From a virus: DNA of 26,923 nucleotides. Shown piece after piece: positions 1,227 to 20,843 of the stretch. Location of the stretch: positions 1-26,923 of IMG/VR virus record IMGVR_UViG_3300021356_000136; one strand, 5' to 3'. The number at the start of each line of letters is the position of its first letter. Position 1 is the first letter of the stretch. The translations under genes and the position numbers were made by a program. The notes beneath the pieces are model-generated. The model was not told the origin of the DNA, did no database searches, and worked only from the letters and a program-made list of their open reading frames with translations.

Positions 1227-3668
1227 TTACCATGTGCTAATCGCTACCCTTTTCCATGTATTTGTAGCAACACATACATAAATGTAGTTTGAATCCCATT
1301 GTATTTGACCTGCTGTACCAGTAGATGTAGCAGAAGCAGGTGCACCACTACTAATCTTTAAACCACCATCAGCATTAATTCTGCCTTGTGCACTTAAACC
1401 TGCACCCGATATAGTTAAGTCGCCGCCATCAATTAAAACACCACCACTACCAGTAAATTCAGCAAAGTCTTTACATAAAAACTCATCTTCCATTACTACT
1501 TGGTTTGTAAACTTTACATAGTTTCCTGTCTTACCTGTTGTAGTTCCATAAGATTCAACTGTAGATAATGTAACTCCATCTATTTCTACTTCAGTAGTTT
1601 TTACTGGGTCATCTGCAATAGTAAAAGTACCTGTAGTTGCATTTGACTCTATACCTAAACCATTGAAAGCAGTTACAGAATAATTATAGTCACTACCTTT
1701 AGCAATAAATGATAGATCTGCTTGATTAGTGTCAACTATCTTACTAAATACTGGATTATCTGAACTATCAGTGACATCTAATCTAAATTCTTTTACTGGA
1801 AAGTCTGTTGGGTTATCCCAAGATATAAAGGGTCTATTTATTGCAGATGCATCAGTATCAGTAAAAGTTACATTCTCAGGTGCTGCTAATGCACCTGCTG
1901 TTGGTGGTGTTGTAGGGTCTGCTGTAGCTTCTTGTAAAGGCACAAGCCACGAATAAATATCTAAATACTCAATCATAGAAACACTAACCAATCCATCAGG
2001 TTGTAATTCTAGGGCTTCAATTCTAAATAGTTTTGAACTAAATCCTAAACCTGCATATGTTAAATCTACTATGTCACCTACATTTAATTTATATATTTCA
2101 GGTGTGCCTAAAAATTGCACTGTAGTTTGATTCCTACTTCTACCTAATATAGCTTTTGCCATATTACTAGCAATATAAGGGTCTGTTATATATGGAAATT
2201 CTGCTTTTATCTCTAAAATCTCACCATCATCAGAATAATAATTAGGTGTCGCATCATGCAATTCTGTAACTGTATCTAATTCGTATTTTTTATTTGCATT
2301 AAAAAACTCTACTATTACTTTGTTAGCTTTTTTATCTTTATTGCCATAGTCAACTGAAATGCCTGTATCAGCTATAATATGATCATCAGTAATACTAAAT
2401 GTAGAACTGCCAGTATCTTCAATTTTAAGTTCATATTTACCATCTATATAAGTAAAAATACCTCTCATGTTTGCTAGTAATTCTTTTGCGTTGTCCATTA
2501 CATTCTTATTGGTATCTACATAACCGTTACAATGAAATCTCTGCACTACAGCTAATATCACTCCATTCTCATCTGTATAATCATCAAGAATGGTGTCATC
2601 AATTGTAATTTCATTGACTTGACTTTCAGAATAGAATTGATAGCTATTAAATGCTTCAATTTTTACACCATCAACAATAAGATTATCACTACTATCTTTT
2701 ATGCTTATTTTTTCATCTACTTTGTTTTGAAAAGCATCATCAAAATCGTCAACAGTAACAATATTAGTATCAGCTTCTGCACTCCATGTTACATTTTGAT
2801 AACTACCACCATAAAATGGATTATTATAAAAAACATCACATATATCAGCAGCATCTTCAAATGTAGACATATTAATATCTGCTGTTGCTAGACCTTTTCC
2901 ATATTCATCATTTTGTATGTAATCAAGAAAGCATAAAGCAGGATTACTAGAAAAAATTGTGCTTTCACTTCTAGGGTCATAAACTTTTTTTCCTCTAACC
3001 TGTACTGTAATTTGTGGTACACCTCTATACATTCCCTTTTTATCATAATCAAATGCAGCAGCAATATAAGCTATGCCATTTAATTTATGATTAGAAGTCC
3101 ATGCTTCAGGTATAGATGCAGTCAACATAGGGTCTGCTGTTTGACTAGCTGAGCCATGATGCAAATTAAAAACAAAAGAATATCTTAGTGTGGGGTCTGT
3201 GCCTAATCTACCTGCTTGTGAATATTGCACATCACCAACTTGACTTGCTGTATTAAGATTCGCAGCACTAGGTATGCTTTTATCACTACCTACATAGCCA
3301 CCACCTTTATATATATTGCCATCTAAAATAGAATTTCCATCTATTTCTATTGTATGACCCATAATTTCTTCTACTTCACCGACACATAATGCATATACAA
3401 CAAATAAATCTTTAGACCTATTGTTTTTTGTATCCATGTATATTACTTGTGCACCAACCCTTCTTGTTCCATATATGACTGGTATCTTGCCACCTGCAGA
3501 AGTTTTGTTAGCCATTATTTCTGCACCTTTAGCTAACATGTCTCTAGCTTGTTGATAGTTTTTTACACCTGTATAAACTGTATATGCAGTTAAGACAGCT
3601 TGTGTATATGGATTAGCTAAAAATGCACCTACAGCTTTAAAAAATTTAATTACTGATTGCCAAACCAT
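1227..3668 (-). CDS. Tail-tip / central tail protein (gpJ-like role) with FN3 domain
   Basis: This 813-residue protein sits between the DUF2163-like protein and the fibre, where siphophages encode the large tail-tip (host-specificity) protein. Residues 1-40 are hydrophobic. KIPVIYGTRRVGAQVIY (about 60-78) resembles the start of other large tail-tip proteins. The middle, with phrases such as DIVDLTYAGLGF, looks like a baseplate-hub fold. Residues 596-690 form a fibronectin type III-like module (APENVTF, FISWDNP, YNYSVTAFNGLG). The last 30 residues (WDSNYIYVCVATNTWKRVAI) are a short C-terminal module that I have also seen on other phage tail proteins. The stop of the upstream 182-aa gene abuts this start, so the two are translationally linked. 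The exact family is inferred; a tail-tip role is likely. Confidence 0.75.
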   Translation of the reverse strand: MVWQSVIKFFKAVGAFLANPYTQAVLTAYTVYTGVKNYQQARDMLAKGAEIMANKTSAGGKIPVIYGTRRVGAQVIYMDTKNNRSKDLFVVYALCVGEVEEIMGHTIEIDGNSILDGNIYKGGGYVGSDKSIPSAANLNTASQVGDVQYSQAGRLGTDPTLRYSFVFNLHHGSASQTADPMLTASIPEAWTSNHKLNGIAYIAAAFDYDKKGMYRGVPQITVQVRGKKVYDPRSESTIFSSNPALCFLDYIQNDEYGKGLATADINMSTFEDAADICDVFYNNPFYGGSYQNVTWSAEADTNIVTVDDFDDAFQNKVDEKISIKDSSDNLIVDGVKIEAFNSYQFYSESQVNEITIDDTILDDYTDENGVILAVVQRFHCNGYVDTNKNVMDNAKELLANMRGIFTYIDGKYELKIEDTGSSTFSITDDHIIADTGISVDYGNKDKKANKVIVEFFNANKKYELDTVTELHDATPNYYSDDGEILEIKAEFPYITDPYIASNMAKAILGRSRNQTTVQFLGTPEIYKLNVGDIVDLTYAGLGFSSKLFRIEALELQPDGLVSVSMIEYLDIYSWLVPLQEATADPTTPPTAGALAAPENVTFTDTDASAINRPFISWDNPTDFPVKEFRLDVTDSSDNPVFSKIVDTNQADLSFIAKGSDYNYSVTAFNGLGIESNATTGTFTIADDPVKTTEVEIDGVTLSTVESYGTTTGKTGNYVKFTNQVVMEDEFLCKDFAEFTGSGGVLIDGGDLTISGAGLSAQGRINADGGLKISSGAPASATSTGTAGQIQWDSNYIYVCVATNTWKRVAISTW

Positions 3669-6261: not shown

Positions 6262-6738
6262 GTTTCATTTGCCTATTCTTTTCTTCTAAGTATGCCATCC
6301 ATCCAGTAAATTCAGATAAGGACATTTTGTTTTCTAGTTCTTCAACTGTAACATGTAAAAGTTCAGCTAAATAATATTTTGCAAATAATTCCTTATCTTC
6401 CGCTACTTTTTTCTTTGTTCATCTACAGTTGGTGTAGACATTATTTCAGTAGCTAATCTAGCTAACACATCTTTGTCTACATTGTTCATTAAAGTTTGTT
6501 TATCAGATAAATCAAACACCTTATTACCTTCTTCATCAAGTGCTTTATAAATTAAGCAATAAGCCATTAATGCAACATCATCATCTTTTGCAAATTTTTG
6601 CAATTTAGACATTTCTGCTAACGTTAATGGCTTTGCATAAATTTTAACCACTTCATTCTCATCACTCCATTCAGGTACTTCAATACATTTAATTTCTAAA
6701 GTATTAAAGTGTTCTTTTGCTTTATCAATGAGTTTCAT
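6251..6738 (-). CDS. Tail assembly chaperone GT, made by -1 ribosomal frameshift
   Basis: If ribosomes slip back one base at A AAA AAG (6412-6406), translation avoids the TAG and continues at GTA (6406-6404) for 51 more codons to TGA at 6253-6251. The product has 162 residues. The extension includes VAEDKELFAKYYLAELLHVT and MSLSEFTGWMAYLEEKNRQ; the latter resembles the T domains of other phages, where a short S/T-x-x-E-F-x-x-W-x-A-Y motif recurs. The extension has no good start codon of its own and overlaps the tape-measure start by 11 bases. In lambda the T part recruits tail-tube subunits to the chaperone-coated tape measure. The slip site is seen directly; the ratio of products is unknown. 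Confidence 0.85.
6403..6738 (-). CDS. Tail assembly chaperone G (frame-0 product)
   Basis: This 111-residue protein lies between the major tail protein and the tape measure, where lambda-like phages encode gpG. It is acidic and helical (LIDKAKEHFNTLEIKCIEVP, LTLAEMSKLQKFAKDDDVAL), like tail-assembly chaperones that coat the tape measure until the tube polymerises. The reading ends ...DEQRKK, followed by TAG at 6405-6403. The stop is immediately preceded by A AAA AAG, so a fraction of ribosomes should shift back one base and make the longer GT protein. The upstream gap to the major tail gene is only 2 bases. Confidence 0.82.
   Translation of the reverse strand: MKLIDKAKEHFNTLEIKCIEVPEWSDENEVVKIYAKPLTLAEMSKLQKFAKDDDVALMAYCLIYKALDEEGNKVFDLSDKQTLMNNVDKDVLARLATEIMSTPTVDEQRKK
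6406..6412 (-). promoter_or_regulatory. -1 frameshift slippery heptamer A AAA AAG
   Basis: Read on the minus strand in frame 0, the sequence is aga aaa aag tag. This places the canonical X XXY YYZ heptamer A AAA AAG directly before the in-frame stop, which can stall the ribosome and favour slippage. The same heptamer serves dnaX of E. coli. Confidence 0.88.
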
Positions 6739-16360: not shown

Positions 16361-16792
16361 TTATTTAAAACCATTAATAATTACACAATCTTCAGGCGGT
16401 ATTCTAAAGATTGGCTCTATGTCTTGATCGTCTCTTGTTGTTAAAGTTCTACCACTAAACTCAAACTTATATGCTTTTGTGAAATCCCATTTGTGATAAC
16501 ACAGCTTGTCATTGCAATTAAATATTAATATGAAGTCACAACCACTTGTATCATGCAATAATTTTGCTGCTTCTATTTTTTTGTAACTAATCATAAATAT
16601 ATATTGACCATAGTTAATGTTAGCTTTTTTTATCTCGCACCATGTATACACATCATCTTTTTTAATTAAATAATCTACTTTGTATTTGACTGGATTTAGC
16701 TTTATAAAATTACATGACCACTTATCTTCAAGATATGTAGCTATATCCTTTTCGTTTTGTAAATCTGCTTTACTTTCGTAATATGGTCTCAT
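16361..16792 (-). CDS. PD-(D/E)XK nuclease-like protein (143 aa)
   Basis: The protein has an N-terminal helix (SKADLQNEKDIATYLEDKW) with Glu14 or Asp16 as a possible first acid. It continues with VKYKVDYLIKKDDVYTWCEI, in which Asp40, Glu53 and Lys55 (D...E-I-K) fit the PD-(D/E)XK active site. The layout helix-strand-D-strand-ExK-helix is the fold's core. The end (QDIEPIFRIPPEDCVIINGF) is not diagnostic. Such small proteins in phage early regions are often DNA-cutting or DNA-processing factors. It starts inside the Lys-rich small ORF (23-base overlap). The exact substrate is unknown. Confidence 0.55.
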   Translation of the reverse strand: MRPYYESKADLQNEKDIATYLEDKWSCNFIKLNPVKYKVDYLIKKDDVYTWCEIKKANINYGQYIFMISYKKIEAAKLLHDTSGCDFILIFNCNDKLCYHKWDFTKAYKFEFSGRTLTTRDDQDIEPIFRIPPEDCVIINGFK

Positions 16793-16883
16793 TCTTTTTC
16801 TTTTTCTTCTTCTTAAATATCTTATCCCAGTTGTCTCTATAAGACTTATGGTCTTTAGTTCTGTCCTTGTCGCCTTTACTCAT
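16770..16883 (-). CDS. Small Lys-rich ORF (37 aa)
   Basis: An ORF from ATG 16883-16881 to TAA 16772-16770 encodes MSKGDKDRTKDHKSYRDNWD, then KIFKKKKKKKNETILRK. Its start overlaps the end of the upstream 164-aa gene by 8 bases, which allows translational coupling. The purine-rich Lys run also supplies the ribosome binding region for the next gene. There is no strong SD of its own. The highly charged peptide could bind nucleic acid, but it could also be a by-product of an A-rich leader. Confidence 0.45.
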   Translation of the reverse strand: MSKGDKDRTKDHKSYRDNWDKIFKKKKKKKNETILRK

Positions 16884-17370
16884 ATGTAATTCTCTCAAAT
16901 GTTACGTCACCATGTTTGTTAGTTAAAAAATGCTTTGCTTCAATAAAATCAGACGGAATAGATTTAAACATTTCCTCCATGCTAAAAAACATAACGTCTT
17001 TTTCATTTTTATGCATTTCCATCATCATCTTTTTCTCATTGTTATAGTCACATACTAAAATAGTTTTTTTATTAAATTCATAACATCTAATATATGGCTC
17101 TAATTCTTTATATCCATTAGCTTTTATCTTTTCTACCAGTGCATCATATGCACGAAACATCATTTCTATCATTTGTAGCTTCTTTTTATCTGTATCTTTG
17201 CTTAAAGATTTATCAAAAAGAATTTTTGCTCTACCGTATTTAATCTCTAAATCTGTGCCTACTAACTTATAAATACGTCTCATATTGCCATACTTTTTAA
17301 ATATCTCTGCTTCATAATTTCGCAAGTCATTTAATCTATTATCTATTTGTCTCTCTAAATATGTTTTCAT
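16876..17370 (-). CDS. Unknown protein (164 aa)
   Basis: I do not recognise this protein. It is helical and charged at the start (YLERQIDNRLNDLRNYEAEI, KKYGNMRRIYKLVG), then has KLQMIEMMFRAYDALVEKIK. The C-terminal half is alpha/beta with Cys, Met and Lys (EPYIRCYEFNKKTILVCDYN, KKMMMEMHKNEKDVMFFSME). No catalytic motif stands out. The gene follows the repeat-rich region after the primase-helicase and has no clear SD. Two TAGAAT boxes lie just before its ATG. It may belong to DNA metabolism by location only. Confidence 0.6.
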   Translation of the reverse strand: MKTYLERQIDNRLNDLRNYEAEIFKKYGNMRRIYKLVGTDLEIKYGRAKILFDKSLSKDTDKKKLQMIEMMFRAYDALVEKIKANGYKELEPYIRCYEFNKKTILVCDYNNEKKMMMEMHKNEKDVMFFSMEEMFKSIPSDFIEAKHFLTNKHGDVTFERITYE

Positions 17371-17500
17371 CTTATTCTACCCATTCTACTCTGCCTACCC
17401 TGCAGTTCTAAAGAACTGCTGCAGGGGTGGCTGAGCAAATATATGGCATTTTGCCTTGCTCTGCCTATTTTTTACTAAAAATGGCAGAGTAATGGCAGAG
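17371..17500. repeat. Iteron-like CTCTGCC/GGCAGAG repeats and stem-loops (candidate origin)
   Basis: This 130-base gap follows the primase-helicase stop. It holds CTCTGCC at 17389-17395 and 17459-17465 and inverted GGCAGAG at 17483-17489 and 17494-17500, with another AGGCAGA covering the stop codon at 17503. Between them are CCCTGCAG/CTGCAGGG arms (17398-17428) enclosing GCAGTTCT-AA-AGAACTGC (17403-17420), and GGCA-ttt-TGCC (17445-17455). The block is more GC-rich than its surroundings. Repeats plus cruciform potential beside a replication helicase suggest an origin, though RNA processing or regulator binding are alternatives. Confidence 0.5.
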
Positions 17501-19441
17501 TTAGGCAGACCCATCAAAATCAGGTGGTATATCTTTATAATCTGCATGTTGCCAATTATTATTCTCTTTATCATGTATAACTAAGTTTTTATCTCTTAAT
17601 GCTGTTAATGTTTTTTGTATTTGATTTGGGTTTAAATCTTCATCATCTTTATTCTTAACTTTTCCTACTAAATCAGAAGTTTGTAATTTAACATCTTGTG
17701 GTGCTTGTGGGTTACGTTCTATAGCTTCTATCTTAAGCTGTGCTAAAACATTTTTTTGATTACCTCTTAATATTGGTTGCTGTTTTTTAGTCAAATCAAC
17801 ATCTGTTTCTTCTAAATATCCTGATGTTAAATTAAGACCGTCACCTATTATATCTACTTCTTTAAAAACAAATGCTTTTTCCTGCATTCCTTGTCCGTCT
17901 TTATTTAAAGTTTGCTCAAAAGTTACATACATATCTTCTTTTTTATCTGCACCTAATGCCTTATCTTGTCTCTCTACTTTAAATTCATAATCTAATGATG
18001 CACCTAATACACTTGAACCTCTTGCTCTATCACCATTACCATGTCCAGTATGATGTACTAAACAAACACAACACTTATACTCAGATATTAGGCTATCTAA
18101 CTTATTAATGAAATTACCAACATCTTCTGCACTATTCTCATTACCTACAAAGTTTCTCTGAAAGGTGTCAATAATTATCATACCTATATTGCCCTCTATA
18201 TTTTGTATGTAGTTAATTTCATCCTTTAGCTTTACAAAATCATCTTCTTCATTGACTCTAACTGCCCTATCAGATAAATATAATGGTACTTCTTTTAAGT
18301 CATACATACCCTGCTGCCATGCAGCCAATCTTCTTTTAACACCTCTTTGACCTTCACCACATAAATATAAAACTGATGCTTTATTAGACTCATTACCGTA
18401 AAAGTTTCTACCCTTTGCTATTGCACATGCCATAGAGATAGCTATAAATGATTTACCACTTTTAGGTTTACCAAATATACACATCAATGCTTCTTTTTCA
18501 CAAACATCTTTAATCAACCACTCAGGATTTGTAACTTGTTGCAAAACATTATCTGCTCTAGTGAATGTGATTTGTCCTATTGGTTTCATAGGATTGCAAA
18601 TAATGTATTTAATTAATGCATCTTGATCTTTAAAATATTCTTTCTCATATGCATCCCATAAATCATCTTTTGCATCAAAGTCTGCAGGTGGTTTAGCAAT
18701 TGTTACTATGCAGCCATTTTTCTTTAAATATGCAGATAATTCACTAGCACACTGTTTACCCGCTTCATCGTTATCAGGAAATATATATACCTCTTTATTA
18801 AATATAGGACTCCAGTCTGATTTTTGCCATCCTGTAGCCCCACCATGCCATGTAACAGCATCATAGTCTTTTGCTATCTTCTTACATCCTATTGCTGCTT
18901 TTTCTCCCTCATTAATAATTATTGGTTTATCTTCATGCTCTGCTTTGTAATAAATTGGCAATAAACCTTCAGGTCTTCGCATAACCCATGTACCATCAGG
19001 ATTTTCACTAAATGGTGCATATTTTTGCTTTATGTAATGATGTGGCGGAAATCGCATTACCTTAAATTTACTTGTGTACTGCAGATACACAATTGCATGT
19101 CCTTGCAACTCCGCCACTTTTTCTTTTGATAATAACTTAGCACCGTCTGACTTTTTAGTAAGGGGAATCATATGAGAAACGTCAGACGATGCCACGTTAT
19201 AACCGTACTGTTTTAAAACTTGTTTTATATCTAAATTATATATCTTAATTAAATCAGTTACACCACCGCCAGTACCTGCTTCGTGGTCATACCATTGTCC
19301 TGTCTCTAAATTCAAAGATTTAGAGCCATGACGACCCCACCTCAGTTCTTTAGGAGTAACTTTAGTAGGTTCGCCAAATAGCTGTTTTGCAATATCAGGT
19401 GCTATTCGCACCCAGTCTGCATCAGAAAGGGATATCGTCAT
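17501..19441 (-). CDS. Primase-helicase: Toprim plus RepA-like AAA ATPase
   Basis: The 646-residue protein combines an N-terminal DNA-binding/primase-like region (residues 1-110, with LNLETGQWYDHEAGTGGGVT, a motif seen at primase fronts) and a Toprim domain at about 170-255. The Toprim has PIIINEGEKAA (Glu178/Glu180) and YIFPDNDEAG (Asp223, Asp225). The RecA-like helicase domain starts near 300: Walker A GKPKSGKS at 324-331, Walker B MIIIDT at 421-426, CLVHHTGHGNGDRARGSS at 460-477 and SLDYEFKV. Residues 550-646 look like a small C-terminal winged-helix domain (QKTLTALRDKNLVIHDKENN). It would open and prime the replication fork; no DNA polymerase is encoded. The start overlaps the SSB-like gene by 20 bases. 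Confidence 0.9.
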   Translation of the reverse strand: MTISLSDADWVRIAPDIAKQLFGEPTKVTPKELRWGRHGSKSLNLETGQWYDHEAGTGGGVTDLIKIYNLDIKQVLKQYGYNVASSDVSHMIPLTKKSDGAKLLSKEKVAELQGHAIVYLQYTSKFKVMRFPPHHYIKQKYAPFSENPDGTWVMRRPEGLLPIYYKAEHEDKPIIINEGEKAAIGCKKIAKDYDAVTWHGGATGWQKSDWSPIFNKEVYIFPDNDEAGKQCASELSAYLKKNGCIVTIAKPPADFDAKDDLWDAYEKEYFKDQDALIKYIICNPMKPIGQITFTRADNVLQQVTNPEWLIKDVCEKEALMCIFGKPKSGKSFIAISMACAIAKGRNFYGNESNKASVLYLCGEGQRGVKRRLAAWQQGMYDLKEVPLYLSDRAVRVNEEDDFVKLKDEINYIQNIEGNIGMIIIDTFQRNFVGNENSAEDVGNFINKLDSLISEYKCCVCLVHHTGHGNGDRARGSSVLGASLDYEFKVERQDKALGADKKEDMYVTFEQTLNKDGQGMQEKAFVFKEVDIIGDGLNLTSGYLEETDVDLTKKQQPILRGNQKNVLAQLKIEAIERNPQAPQDVKLQTSDLVGKVKNKDDEDLNPNQIQKTLTALRDKNLVIHDKENNNWQHADYKDIPPDFDGSA

Positions 19442-20592: not shown

Positions 20593-20734
20593 TTGTATTT
20601 TTGTGTTCTATCATTCCTAACTTTACTAAAAGTTCAGTCGCTTTGCCAATGTCTATTTTATTAACAGCAGCAAATACACTAAGTTCATGGTGCATGTCCT
20701 CACTCACCCATAATGCTTTTTTATTATTTTCCAT
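20585..20734 (-). CDS. Small putative DNA-binding protein (49 aa)
   Basis: This ORF opens at ATG 20734-20732 behind GGAGAG and ends at TAA 20587-20585. It encodes MENNKKALWVSEDMHHELSV, then FAAVNKIDIGKATELLVKLG and MIEHKNTND. A short strand (ALWVS) followed by two helices with D/E-x-x-H-x-x-L is the layout of ribbon-helix-helix repressors, so a small regulator is possible. It overlaps the resolvase start by 8 bases. The SD and the tidy fit make it likely to be real; the fold is inferred. Confidence 0.65.
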   Translation of the reverse strand: MENNKKALWVSEDMHHELSVFAAVNKIDIGKATELLVKLGMIEHKNTND

Positions 20735-20843
20735 TTTTTGACTCTCCATTATCAATATTATTCTTTATTTGGTTTATAATCAAGTTAGGGCGACTAGCGA
20801 AACTCTCCTTCTGTCTAATACTCTCATTTGCTTGTTCGCCCTT
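20735..20843. promoter_or_regulatory. Gap between exonuclease and 49-aa gene; weak promoter candidate
   Basis: On the minus strand TTGATT and TAATAT are 17 bases apart, shortly before the 49-aa gene. GGGCGA (20788-20793) and TCGCCC (20836-20841) form a distant inverted repeat with a 42-base loop. Neither signal is strong. A 15-codon ORF here has no SD. Confidence 0.25.

Follow-up and report, generated by a model that had tools for sequence, protein, structure and literature searches.

A probable iteron-type replication origin behind the TOPRIM-AAA_25 primase-helicase gene of a phage

The replication origins of most environmental phages are unknown. In the viral record IMGVR_UViG_3300021356_000136 (positions 1–26,923 of the record; the window), a gap at positions 17371–17500 separates the stop codon of a primase-helicase gene from an open reading frame of 164 amino acids. 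Short repeats and a hairpin are found in and around this gap, and the question is what they are for. The first-pass annotation of the sequence named a replication origin, a regulator array and an RNA processing site. The origin is clearly best supported, by the same block in relatives, by arrays in unrelated phages and by repeats that track a protein domain. An RNA processing site and a promoter-type operator fit less well. Judged from comparison of sequences, the block is very probably an iteron-type origin of phage replication that is read by the C-terminal domain of the helicase itself.

Repeats and hairpin behind the helicase gene

The block spans positions 17389–17510 and comprises six copies of CTCTGCC or its inverted form GGCAGAG, four of them exact and two with one mismatch (Table 1). 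Five copies had been annotated; the repeats and their orientations agree with that description, and the count is six if imperfect copies are included. The first repeat lies outside the 130-base gap in which the copies had been placed. In the direction of the helicase gene, iterons 1–3 are forward, iteron 4 is inverted and iteron 5 is forward, followed by the hairpin and the inverted iteron 6. In the rep-ori modules of SaPIs and PICIs, two sets of iterons flank an AT-rich region at which the DNA melts. Here, iterons lie on both sides of a stretch (17436–17458) with a GC content of 35%, in a genome that itself has 34%.

Table 1. Coordinates of the repeat block, the hairpin and the adjoining genes
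Feature	Position	Strand	Remarks
Iteron 1, GTCTGCC, in the last helicase codons	17504..17510	-	one mismatch; outer partner of iteron 6 (pairing of 17502-17509 with 17390-17397)
Iteron 2, CTCTGCC	17494..17500	-	exact; invariant in relatives
Iteron 3, CTCTGCC	17483..17489	-	exact; invariant in relatives
Iteron 4, inverted CTCTGCC	17459..17465	+	exact; invariant in relatives
Iteron 5, degenerate CTCAGCC	17429..17435	-	one mismatch; exact CTCTGCC in relatives L002-L006
Iteron 6, inverted CTCTGCC	17389..17395	+	exact
Hairpin: 7-bp stem GCAGTTC/GAACTGC with cap CTTTAG (minus-strand sense) at 17402-17419, 3-nt bulge, 4-bp lower stem	17398..17426		
Primase-helicase, 646 aa, TOPRIM and AAA_25 RecA-fold, RepA-like, presumed initiator	17501..19441	-	Pfam, PHROG
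Helicase C-terminal domain, residues 545-646, winged-helix-like, presumed iteron reader	17504..17809	-	AlphaFold2 model, structure matches
Next operon gene, 164 aa, weak SPO1 gp41-like match, outside the origin	16876..17370	-	Pfam 1.5e-4, below the curated cut-off

The remainder of the window predicts 0.15 copies per 140 nt, whereas six are present within 122 nt, and the block is its densest 7-mer cluster. Clusters of at least three 7-mers with at least four G/C were absent from 28 of 30 shuffled genomes. The 200-nt segment at the block has the highest local repeat score among the 156 segments compared. Furthermore, the composition differs from the surroundings as annotated (gap GC 44% versus 34% for the window, 99th percentile). 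Iteron-type origins are characterized by a short repeat that recurs in a compact noncoding region beside an initiator gene, and such an arrangement is found here beside the gene of the presumed initiator.

The upstream gene was annotated as a replication helicase. This is borne out by its matches to AAA_25 (3.7e-36) and Toprim_2 (1.9e-5) in Pfam and to PHROG 906 (3e-48). All long genes around the block are on the minus strand. The earlier statement that the genome has almost no spare bases is too strong, since further noncoding gaps of 50–250 nt are present. Two further sizeable gaps without a listed long open reading frame are located at 20593–20843 (251 nt) and 6262–6402 (141 nt) of the otherwise compact genome. 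The detrended cumulative GC skew peaks at 16448, about 1 kb from the block. As nearly all genes are on one strand, the skew is uninformative for the origin, and its inflection was dropped as a marker.

The hairpin is the only capped hairpin of its kind in the 26.9 kb window. The previously annotated CCCTGCAG...CTGCAGGG stem, enclosing GCAGTTCT-AA-AGAACTGC, is present in the sequence. The GGCA-ttt-TGCC mini-stem annotated with it is not kept in relatives (GGACAAAAGCC).

Five viral contigs (L002–L006) with helicases of 74–97% identity all have the block behind the helicase gene, and it aligns without gaps. Iterons 2–5 are nearly invariant among them. Two clades are distinguished by their outermost repeats and hairpin. 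Four compensatory changes there are two-sided (three pairs in the hairpin and one in the outer pairing). Conservation of the block beside the primase-helicase gene with compensatory changes in the stems, which the first-pass annotation had proposed as a check, was thus observed. In the alignment of the relatives, 100% of the cells are paired, compared with 26–45% when the partner is slid. These changes are drawn from two clades only and each change counts as one event. The pattern suits a conserved inverted DNA arrangement as well as an RNA fold.

A small overprinted gene would be a different explanation of this conservation. An alternative frame of 59 amino acids (17574..17395, minus strand) runs across the helicase end and the gap, and in L004–L006 it is open with a stop at the same place. 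Most changed gap codons are non-synonymous, however, as judged by eye, and the changes preserve base pairs. Such a gene is extremely unlikely to account for the conservation.

Another rival would be a structured RNA element that the operon transcript forms in the region from the helicase gene to the 164-aa reading frame. A terminator, a processing site, an attenuator or a switch that masks the ribosome-binding site would explain the strong folding of the block, which is seen on both strands (z = -6.0 and -6.1), and the compensatory changes. Alternative pairings exist among the invariant repeats; at long range these could act as a switch. Covariation was rejected as proof of an RNA, as it comes from two clades only and DNA hairpins fit too. 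No match in the window was obtained with Rfam 15 at the gathering score, which argues against a known RNA element. A tRNA or tmRNA remnant was considered as well, and none was found by ARAGORN.

Arrays and capped hairpins at other AAA_25 helicase loci

For a survey independent of the motif, 80 viral contigs were fetched by helicase homology alone, of which 75 could be scored. In 54 of these 75 metagenomic loci, the array at the helicase 3' end is the strongest one, and 12 of 14 clusters (80% core identity) contain a locus with an array at this place. Most of the negatives belong to one clade of 14 XX1924-like loci, in which the region behind the gene lacks both a top-scoring array and a capped hairpin (L086, L107, L108, L110, L112, L113, L120, L122, L125, L126, L132, L133 and others). 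The origin of these phages must be elsewhere or of a different look. Very strong local arrays at a distance from the helicase are located upstream of its stop codon, by about 4.4 kb in L067 (score 302) and by about 2.8 kb in L129 (score 113).

In the Roseobacter phages CRP-406, CRP-811, CRP-821, CRP-823 and CRP-831 and in Rhizobium 16-3, XX1924, CGphi29 and MissE1, the highest-scoring repeat window of the locus is that at the helicase 3' end. The last four belong to a further set of 15 named or metagenomic phages with AAA_25 helicases. They and contig L036 are the members of this set whose best array has this place, and the motif is a different one in each (CGTGACA in 14 copies in Rhizobium 16-3). 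The best array is at another place in the Guernseyvirinae (SETP3, LDT325, K1ind2) and in UncleHowie, Sour, Trine, NBR1, RW, Vibrio 1269 and Mae-JY30; the AAA_25 helicases of Guernseyvirinae, mycobacterial phages and several other actinophages have no array. In eight phages examined afterwards, the top array is at the helicase 3' end in five, one or two of them weakly. The exceptions are a DnaB-like helicase of a Vibrio phage and two actinophages. The repeat sequence differs between lineages, whereas the placement behind the helicase gene is kept across many unrelated phages. The gene downstream of the array differs too, and the array stays with the helicase.

L036 was found through its motif and is outside the survey by homology. 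Nine CTCTGCC copies (L036:4410–4580) are located inside the coding end of its TOPRIM-AAA_25 helicase gene. Its protein tail is therefore made of repeat-derived codons.

Of 85 loci, 42 have the capped hairpin (a perfect stem of at least 6 bp, a cap CT[AT]1-2AG and a distance of at most 250 nt after the helicase stop), and its median distance from the stop is 115 nt. Only one of 2567 other 250-nt windows of the same loci has such a hairpin. The cap is constant and the stem sequences vary widely across loci. Two capped hairpins, with caps CTAAAG, are present behind the helicase gene of Kosakonia phage Kc237.

These loci also bear on the RNA element. Intrinsic terminators combine a G+C-rich hairpin with a T-run, and neither in the window nor in the 42 loci is the capped hairpin followed by one. 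Thus, the capped hairpin is not an ordinary terminator. An element of the operon transcript is also hard to reconcile with an array inside a coding end, as in L036, and with a downstream neighbor that varies between phages. The repeats, moreover, are found in either orientation, and their sequence changes along with a protein domain, as described below. Altogether, an RNA element is unlikely.

Repeat motif and C-terminal domain of the helicase

Comparison with Pfam gave no convincing family for the C-terminal domain of the helicase. The AlphaFold2 model of the window domain has moderate confidence (pLDDT 65.7), and most of the structures that it matches are winged-helix DNA-binding proteins (LexA, Fur, MarR-type and the MCM C-terminus, Z 5–7). 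A model derived from 77 sequences has a mean pLDDT of 86 and consists of a helix-turn-helix with a two-stranded wing. It matches ArsR/MarR-type and other winged-helix folds, all with Z < 8, at which level the matches would support the fold class only.

Where the motif is clear (59 loci), its similarity rises with identity of the C-terminal domain when core identity is corrected for (partial r 0.50, permutation p 0.001). With the C-terminal domain corrected for, motif and core show no relation (-0.10). As the permutation removes phylogeny incompletely, an internal control with pairs matched for core identity (0.84 and 0.82; 40 loci, five motif groups) was added. In these matched pairs, residues 601–630 differ in about 10% of same-motif and about 65% of different-motif comparisons. 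The largest excess in the protein is found for residues 601–615 (12% versus 70%). Nine columns are fixed within the five motif groups and differ between them, eight of them at positions 609–621; with shuffled group labels there are no such columns. The group-specific residues are located on or beside the second helix of the helix-turn-helix in the 77-sequence model. Since the core repeats of the window are alike in both of its clades, the tie between domain and repeat is seen in relatives and not in the lineage of the window.

The terminase of the window is closest (46% identity) to those of the Roseobacter phages CRP-821, CRP-822, CRP-823, CRP-831 and CRP-406. By sequence, the gene upstream of the block is assigned to a relative of the CRP-822-type phages, a family described in 2025 (PMC12629253). 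A text search of that paper found no mention of repeats or iterons. Like the window, these roseophages have the same gene order and an array behind the helicase gene, but with another repeat motif. A gap of ~175–187 bp follows the helicase gene of CRP-811, CRP-821, CRP-823 and CRP-831 and contains short repeats in both orientations and a AAACCCTTTAGGGTTT hairpin. The repeats are GTATAAA/TTTATAC in CRP-821 and CRP-831 and CTACAAA/TTTGTAG at the corresponding places in CRP-811 and CRP-823. Thus, nearly every copy changes together. The motif of CRP-406 is GGCTGGAAA, and its array overlaps the annotated downstream open reading frame.

In almost the whole of the first 600 helicase residues, CRP-821 and CRP-823 are 93–100% identical. 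Their C-terminal ~105 residues are 70–83% identical (60-residue blocks) and every repeat differs. CRP-811 and CRP-823 are ~70–87% identical over much of the first 230 residues and 97–100% in the C-terminal part, and the repeats are common to both. CRP-821 and CRP-831 likewise share the C-terminal part and the repeats. In a sliding comparison of the DNA, the split is confined to the C-terminal domain and the gap (~600 nt), and the flanks (the helicase core and the first 450 nt of the next gene) are 86–99% alike in all pairs. The C-terminal domain and the array behave as one exchangeable cassette in these four Roseobacter phages. Given their adjacency, linkage alone could contribute to the co-variation or mimic it, though both outer flanks do not follow.

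Of the two binding partners proposed in the first-pass annotation, the helicase and the 49-aa protein, nothing speaks for the latter. The tie between motif and domain would show sequence-specific reading of the repeats, leaving its purpose aside. It also suits a DNA site at which the helicase protein does something other than start replication, namely an operator for autorepression, a partition or incompatibility site, or a packaging site. The block is, however, behind the gene and not before it, the array stays with the helicase despite differing neighbors, and the partner in co-variation is a helicase domain. Furthermore, a helicase with such a domain and with sites right behind its gene is the known origin layout of SaPIs and PICIs (PMC7581432, PMC6092414). 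A job other than replication is very unlikely.

Known replicons and the proposed mechanism

The C-terminal domain of SaPI Rep helicases binds iterons directly behind the rep gene itself (PMC7581432). Gram-negative PICIs have the same rep-ori layout, which in 2018 was said to be absent from other known bacterial replicons (PMC6092414). The likeness to the block consists in a replication protein gene followed immediately 3' by short iterons, with a C-terminal domain that reads the cognate repeats in these modules (PMC6092414, PMC7581432) and presumably does so here; the array has this position in the window, in its relatives and in other phages. In contrast, the SaPI Reps are SF3/D5-type or DUF927 helicases of satellites. 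Instead of a DUF927 or D5/Primase_Cterm helicase, the window encodes a RecA-fold AAA_25 helicase fused to a TOPRIM primase, found in tailed phages and accompanied by the capped hairpin.

The replicon of RSF1010 relies on its helicase RepA, on iterons and on ssi hairpins that its primase recognizes (PMC4234260, PMC4538821). A RepA-type RecA-fold hexameric helicase, iterons and short hairpins (in RSF1010 oriV the priming sites ssiA and ssiB) likewise occur together in the window. RSF1010, however, uses three proteins (RepA, RepB' and RepC) with a separate AEP-type primase, RepB'. Here, TOPRIM primase, helicase and winged-helix-like domain form one polypeptide, and the ssi-like role of the hairpin is putative. 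As one defining feature of each is lacking, the block belongs to neither the SaPI nor the RSF1010 family. By analogy, it would work like a fusion of the two devices.

The origin of pRN1 resembles the locus in that a stem-loop just downstream of the gene for a primase-helicase with a C-terminal winged helix is essential; phage BIP-1 is comparable (PMC4234260). It differs by an AEP primase, an SF3 helicase, a large stem-loop and the lack of iterons. The alpha protein of P4 combines TOPRIM primase, helicase and C-terminal DNA-binding domain in one protein and goes with an iteron origin (PMC4234260). It differs by its SF3 helicase and by having ori and crr as separate sites. A search for plasmids with a close full-length relative of the helicase gave no replicon that covers 80% of the query.

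The array, the hairpin, their fixed place behind this type of helicase and the tie between repeat and domain emerge from comparison of the loci. From these we infer binding by the C-terminal domain, melting of the DNA, loading of the helicase, initiation at the block and, most conjecturally, priming at the hairpin. The origin would be placed directly behind the gene of its own initiator. The winged-helix-like domain of the primase-helicase would bind the CTCTGCC iterons in both orientations, and binding would load the ring helicase onto its own origin and melt the DNA. The CTTTAG-capped hairpin would then be exposed as single-stranded DNA. It may, with somewhat less than even likelihood, be a primer start or a loading signal, by analogy to the ssi hairpins of RSF1010. 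A primer would be extended by the host polymerase.

As a tentative generalization, such loci might represent a widespread class of one-protein phage replicons. In the TOPRIM-AAA_25 polypeptide, the C-terminal domain would read the iterons as RepC does, the helicase would correspond to RepA, and primers would start at a CT[AT]AG-capped hairpin, the function of RepB'. The origin would be at the 3' end of its own gene, and domain and iterons would be swapped between phages as a specificity cassette.

AAA_25 proteins are without a described function according to one paper (PMC8965321). The rule that iterons and a CTTTAG-capped hairpin follow the stop codon of an AAA_25 primase-helicase gene would provide testable candidate origins in many phages at a time. 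Which residues would contact the repeats is indicated by the natural swaps in CRP-811, CRP-821, CRP-823 and CRP-831 and by the XX1924-like motif groups. Should primers indeed start at the hairpin, a start signal would be defined for TOPRIM primase-helicase fusions. The layout would also carry the rep-ori arrangement of SaPIs and PICIs beyond satellites.

Exact-pattern searches with the motif of the window retrieved only close relatives and the unrelated phages L032–L036. As a shuffled control pattern also gave two matches, pattern counts alone prove little. In the unrelated viral contigs L033 (3277–3320; also L035) and L034 (2613–2656), intergenic CTCTGCCA repeats in both orientations are located beside PrimPol/D5-type primase-helicase genes. 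These repeats, found by motif search, are perhaps convergent iterons of nearly the same sequence. L032, a contig with a VRR-NUC-like gene, contains two CTCTGCCAG arrays on opposite strands (2809–3133), each beside a DnaA-box-like TTATCCACA; this region looks like another phage origin.
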